A stretch of 8,813 nt of DNA, taken from contig JADFJB010000159.1 in the NCBI GenBank assembly GCA_022566355.1, positions 1 through 8,813 of the forward strand, written 5' to 3'. A program made the translations under genes and the position numbers. Positions 3,959-8,813 of this stretch are shown in pieces. The stretch is from a candidate division KSB1 bacterium (GTDB lineage Bacteria; Zhuqueibacterota; JdFR-76; DREG01). The notes beneath the pieces were generated by a model. The model was not told the DNA's origin. It made no database searches and saw nothing but the letters and a program-made list of their open reading frames with translations. Every line of letters starts with the position of its first letter. The first letter of the stretch is position 1.

Positions 3959-4042
3959 TGCTAACATTAGCTAAATTCAATGCGGGTGGGGGAAAGTATG
4001 ATGCAGTTCATCCCGCACTGCATTTAGCCATAACGTTGAGCA
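3959..4042 (+). repeat. Long imperfect palindrome resembling an integron attC site
   Basis: The left arm (3959-3986) begins TGCTAACATTAGCTAAAT and ends TGCGGG. The right arm (4012-4042) begins CCCGCACTGCATTTAGCC and ends AACGTTGAGCA. By eye about 25 of the 28 left-arm bases pair with the right arm, with a few unpaired bases on the right side only. The outer boxes look like GCTAAC on the left and GTTGAGC (4035-4041) on the right; the latter fits the attC 3' consensus GTTRRRY. The loop is about 25 bases. The site lies 27 bases after the SNF2 stop and just before sequence of very different composition, as at a gene-cassette boundary. The unpaired base inside the right outer box is not canonical. 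A REP-like palindrome or a transcription terminator are alternatives, although no T-run follows. Confidence 0.5.
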
Positions 4043-4060
4043 TAAAAAATGAAAAGAACA

Positions 4061-4123
4061 CATAACAAATCGTTCCACCTGCCATTTTTCCGCTTCGCTC
4101 CAAAACCGTGGCGGTAGGATTGC
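4061..4123 (+). other. Possible truncated second attC-like site
   Basis: The stretch starts CATAACAAATCGTTCCACC, like the 5' side of many attC sites. It forms an imperfect hairpin: GCCA (4081-4084) plus TTTT pair with AAAA (4102-4105) plus TGGC (4109-4112) around a CCGCTTCGCTCC loop. No GTTRRRY box follows at the expected distance; the pairing fades near 4120 and the sequence runs into the VOC gene. It may be a remnant joined to foreign DNA, or only a chance hairpin. Confidence 0.25.
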
Positions 4124-4131
4124 GCGACATC

Positions 4132-4625
4132 ATGTTCACGGGTTTATACGAAACTCACATTGACGTGGTCGATCTGGATCGATCGGTGAGCTTCTATGAA
4201 GACGTCCTTCAACTCGAACTTGGCGTCAAGGTCGTGGTCGATGCGGCGCGGGCAGATTCTCACTCAAAAGGAGCCAAGCGCGTGTTGCGATCATGTGGAT
4301 CGGTGGACAGGGGCATGCGGCATTGGGCTTGTGGGAGCGCCCGGCAGATCGGATCAATGTCCAGCATTTCGCCTTCGAGCTCGCGTGGCCCGAAATGCTT
4401 TCGGTGATTGCGAATCTTGACCGGCGGGGGATCGAATTCCGCGATTTCGAGATGAATCGAACCACCACGCCTTCTGTCTTTGCGTCGGTACCCATGGCGT
4501 CCATCTACTTCGACGATCCCGATGGCCACCTTCTTGAGATTGTTGCAAAGCTGCCCGGAGTGCCACGTCCGGAGCTGGGCATCGTACCGTTGGATGAATG
4601 GAATCAAGGCGATAAGGATACCTGA
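4132..4625 (+). pseudogene. VOC-superfamily (glyoxalase/bleomycin-resistance fold) protein, frameshifted
   Basis: Two frames together make one vicinal-oxygen-chelate protein. The first half starts at ATG 4132 with MFTGLYETHIDVVDLDRSV and runs through SFYEDVLQLELG. The second half continues one base back in frame with RVAIMWIGGQGHAALGLW and ends at TGA 4625 after YFDDPDGHLLEIVAK. The likely metal ligands of the fold are visible: His in ETHID, His in VQHFAFEL and Glu in HLLEIV. One missing base between about 4260 and 4287 explains the break. For example, an extra C near 4280 restores AKRRVAIMW and gives about 164 residues, normal for a single-domain pair of VOC modules. Substrate cannot be told; relatives include glyoxalase I, thiol transferases giving drug resistance and extradiol dioxygenases. 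Base composition is strikingly GC-rich (35 of 60 bases in 4381-4440) against AT-rich neighbours, which suggests transfer. An in-frame GTG at 4108 is a less likely start, because family members begin near MFTGLYE. Confidence 0.8.
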
Positions 4626-4943
4626 CGCCACGGTGTGCGAGTCTCAAACCTCCCTGGGCCCAACGTACAAGTCAACCCTTTGGAGATCAAGAAACAGTTG
4701 CTCCGAGACTCGCTGGTCAGGCGAGGTCAGGACTCATCCTCGAGCCGGTTTGCAGTTTCTTGAAATTGTTCCTTATGGGGTGCTATGCAGTTAGTTCCTG
4801 TTGATAGAAGTTAAGTTTCTCTTGCGAGTCAGTCAAAATCTTATAACTTTGGAATGTTATCAAGAAACAGGTATTCGGTATAAAATCATCTCAAATTTAA
4901 AATAATATTTGTCAAAAATAATAACCTTGAAGGGAGTTTTATC
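4626..4943 (+). other. Gene-free spacer with a composition switch and one inverted repeat
   Basis: No convincing gene was found here. The first part, to about 4780, keeps the GC-rich character of the VOC gene, and the rest is AT-rich like the downstream operon. The right edge of the foreign segment therefore probably lies near 4770-4800. A perfect 9-bp inverted repeat, GCGAGTCTC (4637-4645) and GAGACTCGC (4705-4713), encloses a 59-base loop; it could be an end of an unrecognised element or chance. A GCCCAAC box near 4659 resembles an attC outer box but has no matching partner. The last 90 bases carry a candidate promoter and the ribosome binding site of the next gene. Confidence 0.5.
4857..4884 (+). 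promoter_or_regulatory. Candidate sigma-70-type promoter for the membrane protein/porin/kinase operon
   Basis: TTATCA (4857-4862) and TATAAA (4879-4884) are separated by 16 bases. They match the -35 and -10 consensus at four and five of six positions. The site lies about 60 bases upstream of the first gene of the cluster, where a promoter is expected because the cluster follows an unrelated spacer. In AT-rich DNA such matches are common, so this is weak. Confidence 0.3.
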
Positions 4944-5167
4944 ATGATTGGCAGAGCTATTCTTTATACCGGACTAGCAATGATTGCTGCAGCAGCTTTA
5001 AGAGCTCCATTAGATCTTCTGAGATTCGAAACTATTGATGTTTGGGGTCGGTAGTTCTTGCCGCAGGTTGTATTGTGGCCAGCATCGGGTTGGGCCTAAC
5101 GGGGTCCAAACCGTGGGAGAAAATCACTGAAGCATCAAAACAGGTTAAGAAAATTCCTCGGAACTAA
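4944..5167 (+). pseudogene. Small two-helix membrane protein, interrupted by a one-base shift in a G-run
   Basis: A good Shine-Dalgarno (AAGGGAG, 4930-4936) lies seven bases before ATG 4944. The frame begins MIGRAILYTGLAMIAAAALR and hits a TAG at 5052-5054 after 36 residues. The frame one base back continues as SVVLAAGCIVASIGLGLTG, then KPWEKITEASKQVKKIPRN, and stops at 5165-5167. One extra G in the GGGG run at 5044-5047 joins the two parts through DVWGSVV into a 74-residue protein. It would have two hydrophobic segments (about residues 5-19 and 36-54) and a short basic tail. I do not recognise the family. It is the first gene of the cluster, 44 bases before the porin-like gene, so it is probably co-transcribed and sits in the inner membrane. 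The break could be real, phase-variable or an assembly error. Confidence 0.55.
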
Positions 5168-5211
5168 AAATCTGAAATGGGTCTGCCAGTTGTGTTGGAG
5201 AAGTTAAATCA

Positions 5212-6417
5212 ATGAATCATTGCTGCAAGAAATTAAAAACACAGTCTATGATTGCAAACAAAATGACTTTGCTTTGCGCGATCGTATATTTATTAGTAGC
5301 TATAACGGTGGTCCCAAACATCTTCGCCCAGGAGAAAGAAACTCCGATTAAGATATTTGGCTACTTTCAGAATTCATTCCAGCAATGGACAGCCTTCCAG
5401 GAGCGGCCGAAACAGAATTCTTTCAGCTTACAACAACTCAATCTTCTTTTACAAAAAGACCTTGGCCCCAATTGGACTGCGTTTGTTAATTTTGAATTCC
5501 TGAACAACTTTTCGTCCGGTCGGCAATGGGGTTCGGCGAAGCTTGAGGAAGCCTGGGTGAAATACCGGGCCGACATGAGATTTAATTTGAAGCTTGGATT
5601 GCTCATACCCATCTTTAACAATCTCAATGAGATTAAGAATCGTACGCCATTGCTGCCCTATATTATCAGGCCGTTGGCCTACGAAACATCGTTTAGTGAA
5701 TTTATTCCGATCGAAGTGTTGACCCCTGTCCAGGCGTTTGCACAGGTTTACGGTTTTTTTCCGGCTGGCGAAGCGAAATTTGACTATGCGGTTTATGTTG
5801 GCAACAGTCCGAACATAAACAATGATCCCAAGATCGGCCAAACCGGTATCGACTCCACCGCCACATTTCTTTTAGGCGGCCGGTTGGGTTGGCGCTATGG
5901 CGAACTAAAATTGGGTCTTTCGGCGACCTACGACAAAGACAATTCAGCAGAGGTTCTGGCGGATTCGCTTAACATACCGCGTAGTGAACTTAGCGCAATC
6001 CCTAAAATACGTTTCGGCGGAGATCTGTCTTATGACTTGGGCGATTTTTCATTCGAAAGTGAATTTATTAGAGTGAGTCTTGAACGAGATAGCCCAAAGT
6101 TGGATCGAACTCTCGATTTCTATTATGCCACCTTAGGTTATCATTTTACAGAAGCGCTTTTTATTTATGGCAGTTACTGGTTTTTAGATTCCCACGCAGC
6201 AATACCGGCGCTGCCAAATAAGAGAAAAAAAGAAGACGAAGATGTCAAAGTTAAAACCTTTGGCGCTTCTTTTAACATAATGGACAGAGTCAGGCTTAAA
6301 GCTCAATTTGCCCGGGTTAAACTTGACCATGAGGAACTAAAACTGTCGGATGGTTTGGTTACTCGAACAGAAGACAATTTTAGTACTTTTTCCCTTGCTA
6401 TATCGGTATTCTTTTAA
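5212..6417 (+). CDS. Outer-membrane beta-barrel protein, porin-like
   Basis: The 401-residue product has a basic start, a hydrophobic stretch (about 18-35) and a probable signal-peptidase cut after NIFA (A39/Q40). The mature part opens with FGYFQNSFQQWTAF and is rich in alternating polar/aromatic strands, such as WTAFVNFEFLNNF, KLGLSATYDKD, FYYATLGYHF and LFIYGSYWF. It ends in SLAISVFF, and a C-terminal Phe is the usual signal for outer-membrane barrel assembly. Length and layout fit a porin of the phosphate-porin-like or general 14-18 strand type, but strand number and substrate cannot be read by eye. An acidic and basic loop (KRKKEDEDVK) probably faces the outside. ATG 5212 has a GGAG eleven bases upstream; an internal ATG at 5248 would also leave a signal peptide but lacks a ribosome site. 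The solo phosphate-binding-type gene follows after 28 bases, suggesting that barrel and binding protein handle the same solute. Confidence 0.82.
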   Translation: MNHCCKKLKTQSMIANKMTLLCAIVYLLVAITVVPNIFAQEKETPIKIFGYFQNSFQQWTAFQERPKQNSFSLQQLNLLLQKDLGPNWTAFVNFEFLNNFSSGRQWGSAKLEEAWVKYRADMRFNLKLGLLIPIFNNLNEIKNRTPLLPYIIRPLAYETSFSEFIPIEVLTPVQAFAQVYGFFPAGEAKFDYAVYVGNSPNINNDPKIGQTGIDSTATFLLGGRLGWRYGELKLGLSATYDKDNSAEVLADSLNIPRSELSAIPKIRFGGDLSYDLGDFSFESEFIRVSLERDSPKLDRTLDFYYATLGYHFTEALFIYGSYWFLDSHAAIPALPNKRKKEDEDVKVKTFGASFNIMDRVRLKAQFARVKLDHEELKLSDGLVTRTEDNFSTFSLAISVFF

Positions 6418-6445
6418 AATAGAAGTTCCTAAAATTATCAGCAAA

Positions 6446-6883
6446 ATGATAAAAATAAAAATTGCGATTGTAACCCTGTTGTTTTTGTTCTGCTGGACAG
6501 AAACCTCATTTTCACAAGTGGTGGTGATCGCTCATAAATCAGTGCCAATTGATAAGATTAAGAAATCTGAGTTACTTGATTTCTATACGGGTGATATAAA
6601 GAAATGGCGCGATGATCAACCCGTGGTCGTTTTTGACTTGAAACCAAGAGGAGAAGTAAAGGAAACCTTTTACAAATTTTTGGGGAAAAGATCTTCACGC
6701 ATGAAATCCATTTGGTTGAAGAAGATGCTCTCAGGTGAAGGAGATCCTCCTGTCTCTATGAAGTCTGAGGAAGAGTTATTGAAAAAAGTCGCTACTACGT
6801 CCGGGGCAATCGGGTTTGTCGGCCAATCCAAAGTTAGCGACGATGTCAAAACGCTTCTCATCATCGAGAAAGACAAGAAATGA
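6446..6883 (+). CDS. Solo PstS-like periplasmic substrate-binding protein (PBP-like domain)
   Basis: The 145-residue protein starts MIKIKIAIVTLLFLFCWTET, a signal peptide probably cut after SFS, near residue 23. The mature part opens with VVVIAHKSVPIDKIKKSE. It then shows the family pattern of short PstS-like proteins: LLDFYTGDIKKWRDDQPVVVFDL, a KETFYKFLGK segment, WLKKMLSGEGDPP, and near the end TTSGAIGFVGQS. These are annotated as phosphate ABC transporter substrate-binding proteins but are about half the size of true PstS. They typically occur without transporter subunits, often next to a porin and a sensor protein, as here. No lipobox is seen at the internal Cys. The frame is open further upstream to 6350, overlapping the porin, but only ATG 6446 yields a signal peptide. 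The gene overlaps the kinase 5' end. Ligand is unproven; phosphate or another oxyanion is the family-based guess. Confidence 0.85.
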   Translation: MIKIKIAIVTLLFLFCWTETSFSQVVVIAHKSVPIDKIKKSELLDFYTGDIKKWRDDQPVVVFDLKPRGEVKETFYKFLGKRSSRMKSIWLKKMLSGEGDPPVSMKSEEELLKKVATTSGAIGFVGQSKVSDDVKTLLIIEKDKK

Positions 6884-8549
6884 ACATTCTCAATCCATAG
6901 GGACCATAATTAAATTAAAGGATCTAAAACTGGGCACAAAACAGGGGATTGGCTTCGCTATAATCCTAATTATCATGGCGGGCGCCCATATTTATTCAGC
7001 AAGAAAAATGGCTGAAATAAAGGCTGAAATTGACGAAGTGACAGCAAGTTGGCTGCCAAGAGCCATTGCGATCTCAGCCATCAATATCAATACAGCTAAC
7101 CTACACATTTTTCAATTGCAGTATGTTATTGCAACCGATGAAACAAGAAAGGAGGAGCTGAGTATTACGGTGAGTTCTTTAATAGATACGCTTAATGAGA
7201 ATCGCGATAAATACGAAAAGCTCAGAGATTCTGCTGAGGATCGACATCTCTATTCTGAAAATGAACGGACGCTTTACGATGAATTCGATCAGAAGTGGGA
7301 TGACTATCAATATTTAACTTATACAATTATTCAACTCATCAGAGATAATGAACCTGAGGCCGCAGTTGCGCTGCTGAACGGTGAGGCACAGGCTGTATTC
7401 AACGACTTGAGCGCCGACCTGAACGAACTTGTGAATATCAATAAGCAAGATTCTTTTGATGCGGCTAAACGAGCTGATATGACTTATCAATCTGCCCATA
7501 ATATCATGATCAGTCTTTATATCTTCACGCTCCTGCTGTCTGTCTTTATCGCAACCCGGTTGGCTCGGTCCATTATCGGGCCTGTGCAACAACTGGAACA
7601 AGCTGCCGGCAAGGTTGCCAGGGGGGACCTCGCTGTGCGGTTGGATATGCCAGGCAAGGATGAGATTGGCAATCTTGCTCAGTCCTTTAATCAAATGACC
7701 TCCTCGCTACAGGAAGCGAAAGAAAAAACACGCCTTCAAGCTGATAAACTTGAGGCACGGAATCAAGACCTTGGCAGAACCATGTACCAGCTAAAGAAGA
7801 CTCAGAACGAGCTTTTGATGAAAGAAAAAATGGCATCATTGGGCGATCTGGTAGCTGGCATTGCTCATGAAATCAACAATCCTATTGGCGTAATGATCAG
7901 TTCAACCGATGTCTCCTTGCGCTGCCTTGACAAAATAGAGATTGCCTTAGAAAAAAGTGAGACGACAGAGAAAAGAAGAAATAACAATCAGCTTCCCGAA
8001 GCCTTGAGGATACTGAAAGATAATATTAAAAACATATTAACAGCAGGTGATCGAATTGCGACAATTGTGAAAAGCATGAAAAATTTTGCCCGATTGGATG
8101 AAGCAGATTACCAGAAGGTGGATCTTCATGAAGGACTCGATAGCAGTCTGACATTACTTGGAACAGAACTGACGAACCGTTTAGAAATCGTGAAAGAATA
8201 CGGTGAGATACCCAGGATTGAATGTTATCCCGGGCAACTAAATCAGGTGTTCATCAGCCTACTGAAGAACGCCTCCCAGGCCATTGAGGATTCCGGCACT
8301 ATTGGGATTAAGACCTATAAGACAAAAAATCATATTCATGTCCAGATTTCCGACACCGGTAAAGGGATACCACATGAAAAATTAAACAAAATTTTCAACT
8401 TTAACTTTTCAGCGGCTGGTTCGCGCATTAAAATGGCAGCGGGGTTGACAACTGCGTATAATATTATTCAAAAACATAATGGAGAAATCAAGGTAAAAAG
8501 TGAAGTCGGAAAAGGAACGACCTTTTCGATAATTTTGCCTATAAAGTAG
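6843..8549 (+). CDS. Membrane sensor histidine kinase (4HB-MCP-like sensor, HAMP, HisKA, HATPase)
   Basis: From ATG 6843 the product has 568 residues. TM1 is at about 35-52. A mostly helical periplasmic region (about 53-220) has the pattern of four-helix-bundle chemoreceptor sensors (QYVIATDETRKEEL, LLNGEAQAVFNDL). TM2 is at about 221-243, a HAMP domain at 243-296 (GPVQQLEQAAGKVARGDL), then a coiled coil. HisKA has the phosphoacceptor His342 in GIAHEINNP. The HATPase domain has N476 in the N box (LLKNASQAI) and the G1 box DTGKGIP (504-510). The ATP lid is atypical: FNFNFSAAGSR then KMAAGLTT replaces the usual FFTTK/GTGLGL. It ends GKGTTFSIILPIK, so there is no receiver domain. The start is uncertain. 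ATG 6843 overlaps the upstream gene by 41 bases without a ribosome site, while ATG 6880, in the ATGA overlap, meets a stop after six codons unless one base is missing. The likely job is to sense the state of the co-encoded binding protein or envelope and phosphorylate a regulator encoded elsewhere. Confidence 0.92.
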   Translation: MSKRFSSSRKTRNEHSQSIGTIIKLKDLKLGTKQGIGFAIILIIMAGAHIYSARKMAEIKAEIDEVTASWLPRAIAISAININTANLHIFQLQYVIATDETRKEELSITVSSLIDTLNENRDKYEKLRDSAEDRHLYSENERTLYDEFDQKWDDYQYLTYTIIQLIRDNEPEAAVALLNGEAQAVFNDLSADLNELVNINKQDSFDAAKRADMTYQSAHNIMISLYIFTLLLSVFIATRLARSIIGPVQQLEQAAGKVARGDLAVRLDMPGKDEIGNLAQSFNQMTSSLQEAKEKTRLQADKLEARNQDLGRTMYQLKKTQNELLMKEKMASLGDLVAGIAHEINNPIGVMISSTDVSLRCLDKIEIALEKSETTEKRRNNNQLPEALRILKDNIKNILTAGDRIATIVKSMKNFARLDEADYQKVDLHEGLDSSLTLLGTELTNRLEIVKEYGEIPRIECYPGQLNQVFISLLKNASQAIEDSGTIGIKTYKTKNHIHVQISDTGKGIPHEKLNKIFNFNFSAAGSRIKMAAGLTTAYNIIQKHNGEIKVKSEVGKGTTFSIILPIK

Positions 8550-8612: not shown

Positions 8613-8812
8613 AAAATGTCATTCCCGCCCAGGAGGCTGTTGCAGAATACACTTTTCTGGCGAAACGTCATTCTGAACGAAGTGAAGAATCTCTTGATTT
8701 TATTGAGCTTAAAACGTGCTAGAGATCCTTCGCTTGCGCTCAGGATGACCATTTTGTTATCTTAAGCTCCATTCTGCGACAGCCTGCCAGGCGGGACGGG
8801 GGTGACATTTTT
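8613..8812. repeat. Composite nested palindromic repeat (outer arms)
   Basis: The outer left arm (8613-8648) begins AAAATGTCATTCCCG and ends AGGCTGTTGCAGAAT. The right arm (8771-8812) is its near-perfect reverse complement, beginning ATTCTGCGACAGCCT and ending GGTGACATTTTT. The right arm carries a few extra bases. A further 8-bp pair, GAGCTTAA (8705-8712) and TTAAGCTC (8762-8769), also sits inside. No reading frame of note is present. The structure looks like a MITE- or REP-type non-coding repeat with another repeat inside it. It could also act as a bidirectional terminator after the kinase gene. Confidence 0.8.
8667..8749. repeat. Inner inverted repeat of the GTCATTCTGA...GAATCTC type
   Basis: The left arm (8667-8693) begins GTCATTCTGAACGAAGTG and ends GAAGAATCTC. 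The right arm (8722-8749) begins GAGATCCTTCGCTTGCGC and ends CAGGATGAC. As reverse complements they match at all but a few positions, with one extra base on the right. Sequences very like GTCATTCTGAGCGAAGCGAAG are a widespread intergenic repeat in many bacterial genomes; I know this from general experience, not from a search. It lies inside the outer palindrome, as if one repeat had inserted into another. Confidence 0.75.
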
Positions 8813-8813
8813 G

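Follow-up and report, generated by a model that had tools for sequence, protein, structure and literature searches.

The window analysed here is one entire contig of 8813 bases, taken from a 4.62-Mb genome in 213 contigs that is rated 98.5% complete and whose nearest named relatives are MAGs labelled candidate division KSB1, Calditrichia or Calditrichaeota. It carries three co-directional and tightly packed genes, coding for an outer-membrane porin, a short PstS-like protein (called half-PstS from here on) and a histidine kinase (Table 1). The porin and half-PstS genes are separated by 28 bases, the same gap that was reported in a previous reading of this DNA (the sequence-only reading), which was also right in finding neither an ABC-transporter gene nor a response regulator within the window. 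The first gene of the contig codes for an SNF2-family helicase, whose nearest NCBIfam model is that of the SCO1167/SCO6262 helicase, with a score under the cut-off of this model. It is followed by a VOC/glyoxalase-family gene interrupted by a frame break. A GC-rich stretch (about 4000-4800) contains 53-58% GC, compared to about 30-48% in the remainder of the contig, and the split VOC gene in this stretch may have arrived recently, be in decay or result from an assembly error. A dispersed repeat lies at the contig end (about 8620-8813) and includes the 24-mer CATTCTGAACGAAGTGAAGAATCT (positions 8669-8692), which is present in 7 copies in the host genome, allowing up to 2 mismatches, versus 0 for the control.

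Table 1. Features of the window, with their positions and the basis of each assignment
Feature	Position	Strand	Basis or remark
SNF2-type helicase, 1188 aa	365-3931	+	C-x-C...C-x-H (SWIM-like) motif close to N-terminus
Broken VOC gene	about 4108-4625	+	Upstream of the cassette
Two ORFs, previously read as one small membrane protein	4944-5054 and 5042-5167	+	Different frames; outside the cassette
Outer-membrane porin-type beta-barrel, 401 aa, signal peptide, C-terminal Phe	5212-6417	+	Porin_4, E 1e-8
Half-PstS, probably secreted, 145 aa, lobe II of PstS	6446-6883	+	PBP_like_2; AlphaFold model
Shine-Dalgarno-like box (AGGG) followed by the putative kinase start codon ATT	6899-6911	+	Sequence; putative start
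Histidine kinase: TM1, periplasmic four-helix bundle, TM2, HAMP, HisKA, HATPase_c	about 6909-8549	+	Pfam

The sequence-only reading had described a four-gene co-directional cluster that opened with a small two-helix membrane protein, proposed as a possible new partner. This candidate has been discarded: the first frame stops after 36 amino acids and the second hydrophobic stretch sits in another frame. With regard to a programmed -1 frameshift, no slippery heptamer in phase was detected at the junction (by visual inspection only). The hypothetical product has zero relatives among 39 related genomes and no Pfam match, and a tblastn search against all other cassettes gave none. Because the region is made of two frames without relatives or Pfam match, the four-gene operon is reduced to a three-gene cassette, in which the porin, half-PstS and kinase of the original cluster are retained.

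The porin also matches the Porin_O_P family (E 5e-4), and a homologue is found immediately 5' of half-PstS in all of the 20 close loci, which were collected by using seven aligned half-PstS orthologues as the query against species genomes. A C-terminal Phe, which is a signature of outer-membrane barrels, is present in the product of the gene preceding half-PstS in 46 of 51 loci. Many of the genes upstream of half-PstS also match porin families, Porin_O_P giving a weak match in 28/52 upstream barrels, and four close loci (L082, L085, L086 and L088) contain two porins each.

Half-PstS matches PBP_like_2 (E 4e-5) over profile positions 93-188 of 267 only, and ptsS_2 weakly, under the cut-off; its homology is to PstS only. 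The AlphaFold2 model of this protein, built with an alignment of 20 sequences (pLDDT 90.6), superimposes on 4q8r with a Z of 15.4 over 108 residues and an rmsd of 1.7 (Foldseek, VIA-align), and on residues 75-254 of E. coli PstS with a Z of about 11.7 (VIA-align). According to the model, half-PstS is lobe II of PstS, from hinge to hinge, and lobe I is missing. It is therefore not a two-lobed type II PBP fold, since the model covers residues 75-254 of E. coli PstS alone, and the inter-lobe ligand cleft is absent from the single lobe, although a dimer could form one. The sequence R..SGT, the phosphate-contacting motif of PstS lobe II (with residue roles as in E. coli PstS), is missing from every aligned short member and is present in a Bacteroides full-length control and in solved PstS sequences; the full-length PstS-like matches of KSB1-type genomes (L113-L117) align poorly at the motif and were left out as controls. 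Half-PstS is thus doubtful as a "binding protein" in the ordinary sense, because it has only one lobe of the Venus flytrap and the phosphate motif is gone in all members, an anatomy that does not show a ligand entering through the porin, as the sequence-only reading had it, and then being trapped in a clamshell. Residues kept across the short family include W54, F75, W90, G97, P101-P102 and G120-A121-I122-G123, among others, and could possibly form an interface. No half-PstS-receptor fusions were seen; the strong matches sit in open frames of about 140-230 amino acids, except for one (G060:C95, locus L135) in a frame of 333 amino acids. Viral contigs gave no relative.

The kinase contains 4HB_MCP_1, HAMP, HisKA and HATPase_c domains (Pfam) and an intact H-box (GIAHEINNP) with the phospho-acceptor His, the complete set of a 4HB-HAMP histidine kinase. 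The model of its sensor (pLDDT 88.5) is all-helical (helices 8-74, 78-111, 117-145 and 149-237), in agreement with 4HB_MCP_1. About ten orthologous kinases of the cassette carry R-[VI]-K-[ML]-x-[ST]-G-L in place of the GTGLGL box of the ATP lid (about 8395-8475), and other cassette kinases retain the canonical glycine-rich box; this conservation indicates that the variant lid is a subfamily trait and not a sign of decay. The called ORF (6816-8549) overlaps the half-PstS gene, as described in the sequence-only reading, but the overlap is probably an ORF-calling artefact, because the start codons of nearly all kinase orthologues align with position 6909, which would leave a 25-base gap. This codon is ATT in the window, ATC in the closest relative (L074) and ATG in nearly all other orthologues. 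Six bases 5' of it there is an AGGG in the window and an AGGA in L074, whose kinase has no ATG, GTG or TTG before the middle of the first transmembrane helix. The kinase seems to begin at the non-standard codon ATT.

The order porin, half-PstS, 4HB-HAMP kinase recurs in KSB1/Calditrichota-like bacteria. A 4HB-HAMP kinase is located downstream, directly or after a second porin, in 14 of the 20 close loci, a number that includes L091, whose contig stops within the sensor sequence, and L075, in which the kinase is divided between two ORFs. The 4HB kinase is missing from L076, L078 and L079; in L077 a response regulator and another kinase occupy its position, and L092 is cut off by the contig edge. 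Conserved co-occurrence in related genomes is found for the porin, half-PstS and HAMP kinase and not for the small protein. One cassette, in a marine MAG (L073), looks broken, with a truncated porin, about 60 residues of the kinase sensor and an intact half-PstS. One genome holds two different porin/half-PstS/kinase cassettes (L031 and L074) on the same contig (G030:C43), separated by about 17 kb that include cytochrome-like (CxxCH) genes.

In the widened search for short PstS-like proteins of the phylum, the profile matched in 25 of 53 genomes. The surroundings of all short PstS-like proteins in the phylum, anchored on half-PstS, gave 54 non-redundant loci, and in 45 of them one of the first two co-directional genes downstream codes for a HAMP protein. 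This count is partly circular, since the downstream proteins themselves were used to build the HAMP model; two more loci end at a contig edge, and HAMP is found in 3 of 356 other genes in the same stretches. Pfam, which provides an independent model, identified HAMP in 42, HisKA in 36, 4HB_MCP_1 in 18 and the chemoreceptor signalling domain in 5 of 51 downstream proteins, taken as the second neighbour in a few loci. Scattered genes, or a half-PstS beside pstCAB without a kinase, had been named as the arrangement that would speak against the grouping, and linkage to HAMP receptors was observed instead. The distances of lobe, porin and receptor sensor correlate at 0.76-0.89 (23 loci, paralogous cassettes of one genome included), with the highest value between lobe and porin (0.89), suggesting that the three parts behave together as one unit, with some contribution of shared descent to these values. 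Receptor sensor domains differ between loci (4HB, dCache and others), so a single common docking surface is not obvious.

Barrel and half-PstS also occur as a pair in proteobacterial plasmids, often beside chemoreceptors or GGDEF/EAL proteins, and many of the short proteins are annotated there as "phosphate ABC transporter substrate-binding protein". The arrangement is MCP-porin-lobe in Pseudomonas aeruginosa plasmids, barrel-lobe-MCP-diguanylate cyclase in Massilia and Ideonella, barrel-lobe-GGDEF/EAL in Caballeronia, barrel-lobe-GGDEF in a Comamonadaceae plasmid, lobe-barrel-GGDEF/EAL in Halomonas, porin-lobe facing an MCP in Pseudoalteromonas, and lobe-barrel with a divergent hybrid kinase in Photobacterium; in several of these loci "barrel" is assigned by size, position and C-terminal Phe, because Pfam is silent for some. 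Alteromonas and Saccharobesus have only the barrel and lobe pair, P. xiamenensis has lobe-porin with no receptor identified, and Pseudoalteromonas Bsw20308 has no barrel annotated next to the lobe. As a control, full-length PstS from the same search adjoins pstCAB. In two Alteromonas plasmids (L142 and L153), the half-PstS and barrel pair directly adjoins the type IV CRISPR genes csf1-3.

The conserved gene order, the single lobe of the model, the loss of the motif, the 4HB/HAMP architecture of the kinase and the lack of a Pst transporter in the host suggest that porin, half-PstS and kinase probably form a three-layer envelope-sensing cassette and not a transporter, with half-PstS as a periplasmic adaptor of the HAMP receptor. 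Half-PstS would be secreted to the periplasm, where it could dock on the helical sensor of the kinase or be retained by the barrel. The HAMP/kinase output would then be altered by a solute or by a change at the outer membrane, and would be passed to a response regulator encoded elsewhere. The most economical mechanism would be one in which the barrel and the secreted lobe feed an outer-membrane or periplasmic signal to the HAMP receptor. The proposal of the sequence-only reading that the PstS-like protein is a receptor subunit rather than a transport component is well supported by the linkage to HAMP receptors, the lack of linkage to pstCAB and a host without PstB, PstC or another PstS. Counting against this reading, the 4HB kinase is missing beside porin and half-PstS in 4 of the 20 close loci (L076-L079), and the pair is alone in some gammaproteobacterial loci. 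In related loci, barrel and half-PstS are wired to chemoreceptors or to c-di-GMP enzymes, which gives the pair the look of an exchangeable input module. It is conceivable, although we hold this more tentatively, that these loci represent a widespread and apparently undescribed module, in which a PstS lobe without ligand binding works as a protein adaptor relaying the state of the barrel to interchangeable inner-membrane receptors (histidine kinases, chemoreceptors and c-di-GMP enzymes).

A different and rather unlikely explanation is that half-PstS has kept the ability to bind a small anion (phosphate or similar), as a single lobe or as a dimer, and that the ligand-bound form activates the kinase, which would make the cassette a reduced version of SBP-activated receptors such as PstS-CtpL or GltB-GtrS. 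It would fit the exclusive homology to PstS, the weak Porin_O_P matches of the upstream barrels (28/52), the L077 pair followed by a response regulator and a kinase, and the fact that PstS itself activates the chemoreceptor CtpL (PMC9864684), but lobe I is missing and R..SGT is absent from every short member. It is more improbable that the lobe mainly serves the barrel, as a periplasmic plug or an assembly or gating factor, and that receptor genes are adjacent because they regulate the porin: barrel and lobe are the most constant pair, also without receptor (L076, L078, L079, Alteromonas and Saccharobesus), and show the top distance correlation, but HAMP receptors of three biochemical kinds are strongly linked to the pair, which speaks against it. 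Finally, a transport SBP serving a Pst transporter encoded elsewhere, as the database names and the sub-cut-off ptsS_2 match would suggest, is very unlikely, because in the host genome, whose completeness leaves a small gap, PstB (TIGR00972) and PstC (TIGR02138), the cognate partners of such a protein, give nothing above cut-off while control genomes ring, PBP_like_2 finds half-PstS alone and no other PstS-superfamily protein, three PHO4/Pit-type transporter genes are present, and the single lobe has no binding motif.

On this evidence, the database name is misleading for the short proteins, which consist of one lobe and are linked to outer-membrane barrels and HAMP receptors. If this holds, a recurrent signalling family is hidden behind a transport name in several phyla, and the reading of outer-membrane events by an inner-membrane receptor becomes testable in culturable Massilia, Ideonella or Pseudoalteromonas. 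No description of a single-lobe PstS signalling family or module was found in the literature searched, whose coverage is incomplete, and only analogues can be compared. Half-PstS is homologous to PstS (PBP_like_2/TIGR02136) by sequence and fold across lobe II, but differs from it in lacking lobe I and the R..SGT phosphate site and in being encoded by genes unlinked to pstCAB. SBP genes adjoining SHK genes have been described (PMC11113362), and GltB-GtrS regulates the gltBFGK-oprB porin operon (PMC7927077). As in these SBP-activated receptors, the cassette ties a relative of periplasmic binding proteins to a HAMP receptor, here through the adjacent gene of a transmembrane receptor; GltB is also linked to a porin and the partner of CtpL belongs to the PstS family. 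However, the SBPs of these systems are full two-lobed ligand binders, and PstS and GltB also feed an ABC transporter, whereas the cassette has one lobe, and hence no ligand-binding cleft, no ligand motif and no transporter. The YfiBNR system is composed of an outer-membrane lipoprotein, the periplasmic YfiR and an inner-membrane diguanylate cyclase (PMC4655355). The cassette is not a member of this system, since Pfam identifies porin, PBP_like_2 and histidine-kinase domains in it; YfiBNR has an OmpA-like lipoprotein (YfiB) where the cassette has a porin, its YfiR is no PstS lobe, and its output is c-di-GMP. The resemblance is one of functional analogy only, both consisting of three layers: an outer-membrane part, a small periplasmic bridge and an inner-membrane HAMP effector.
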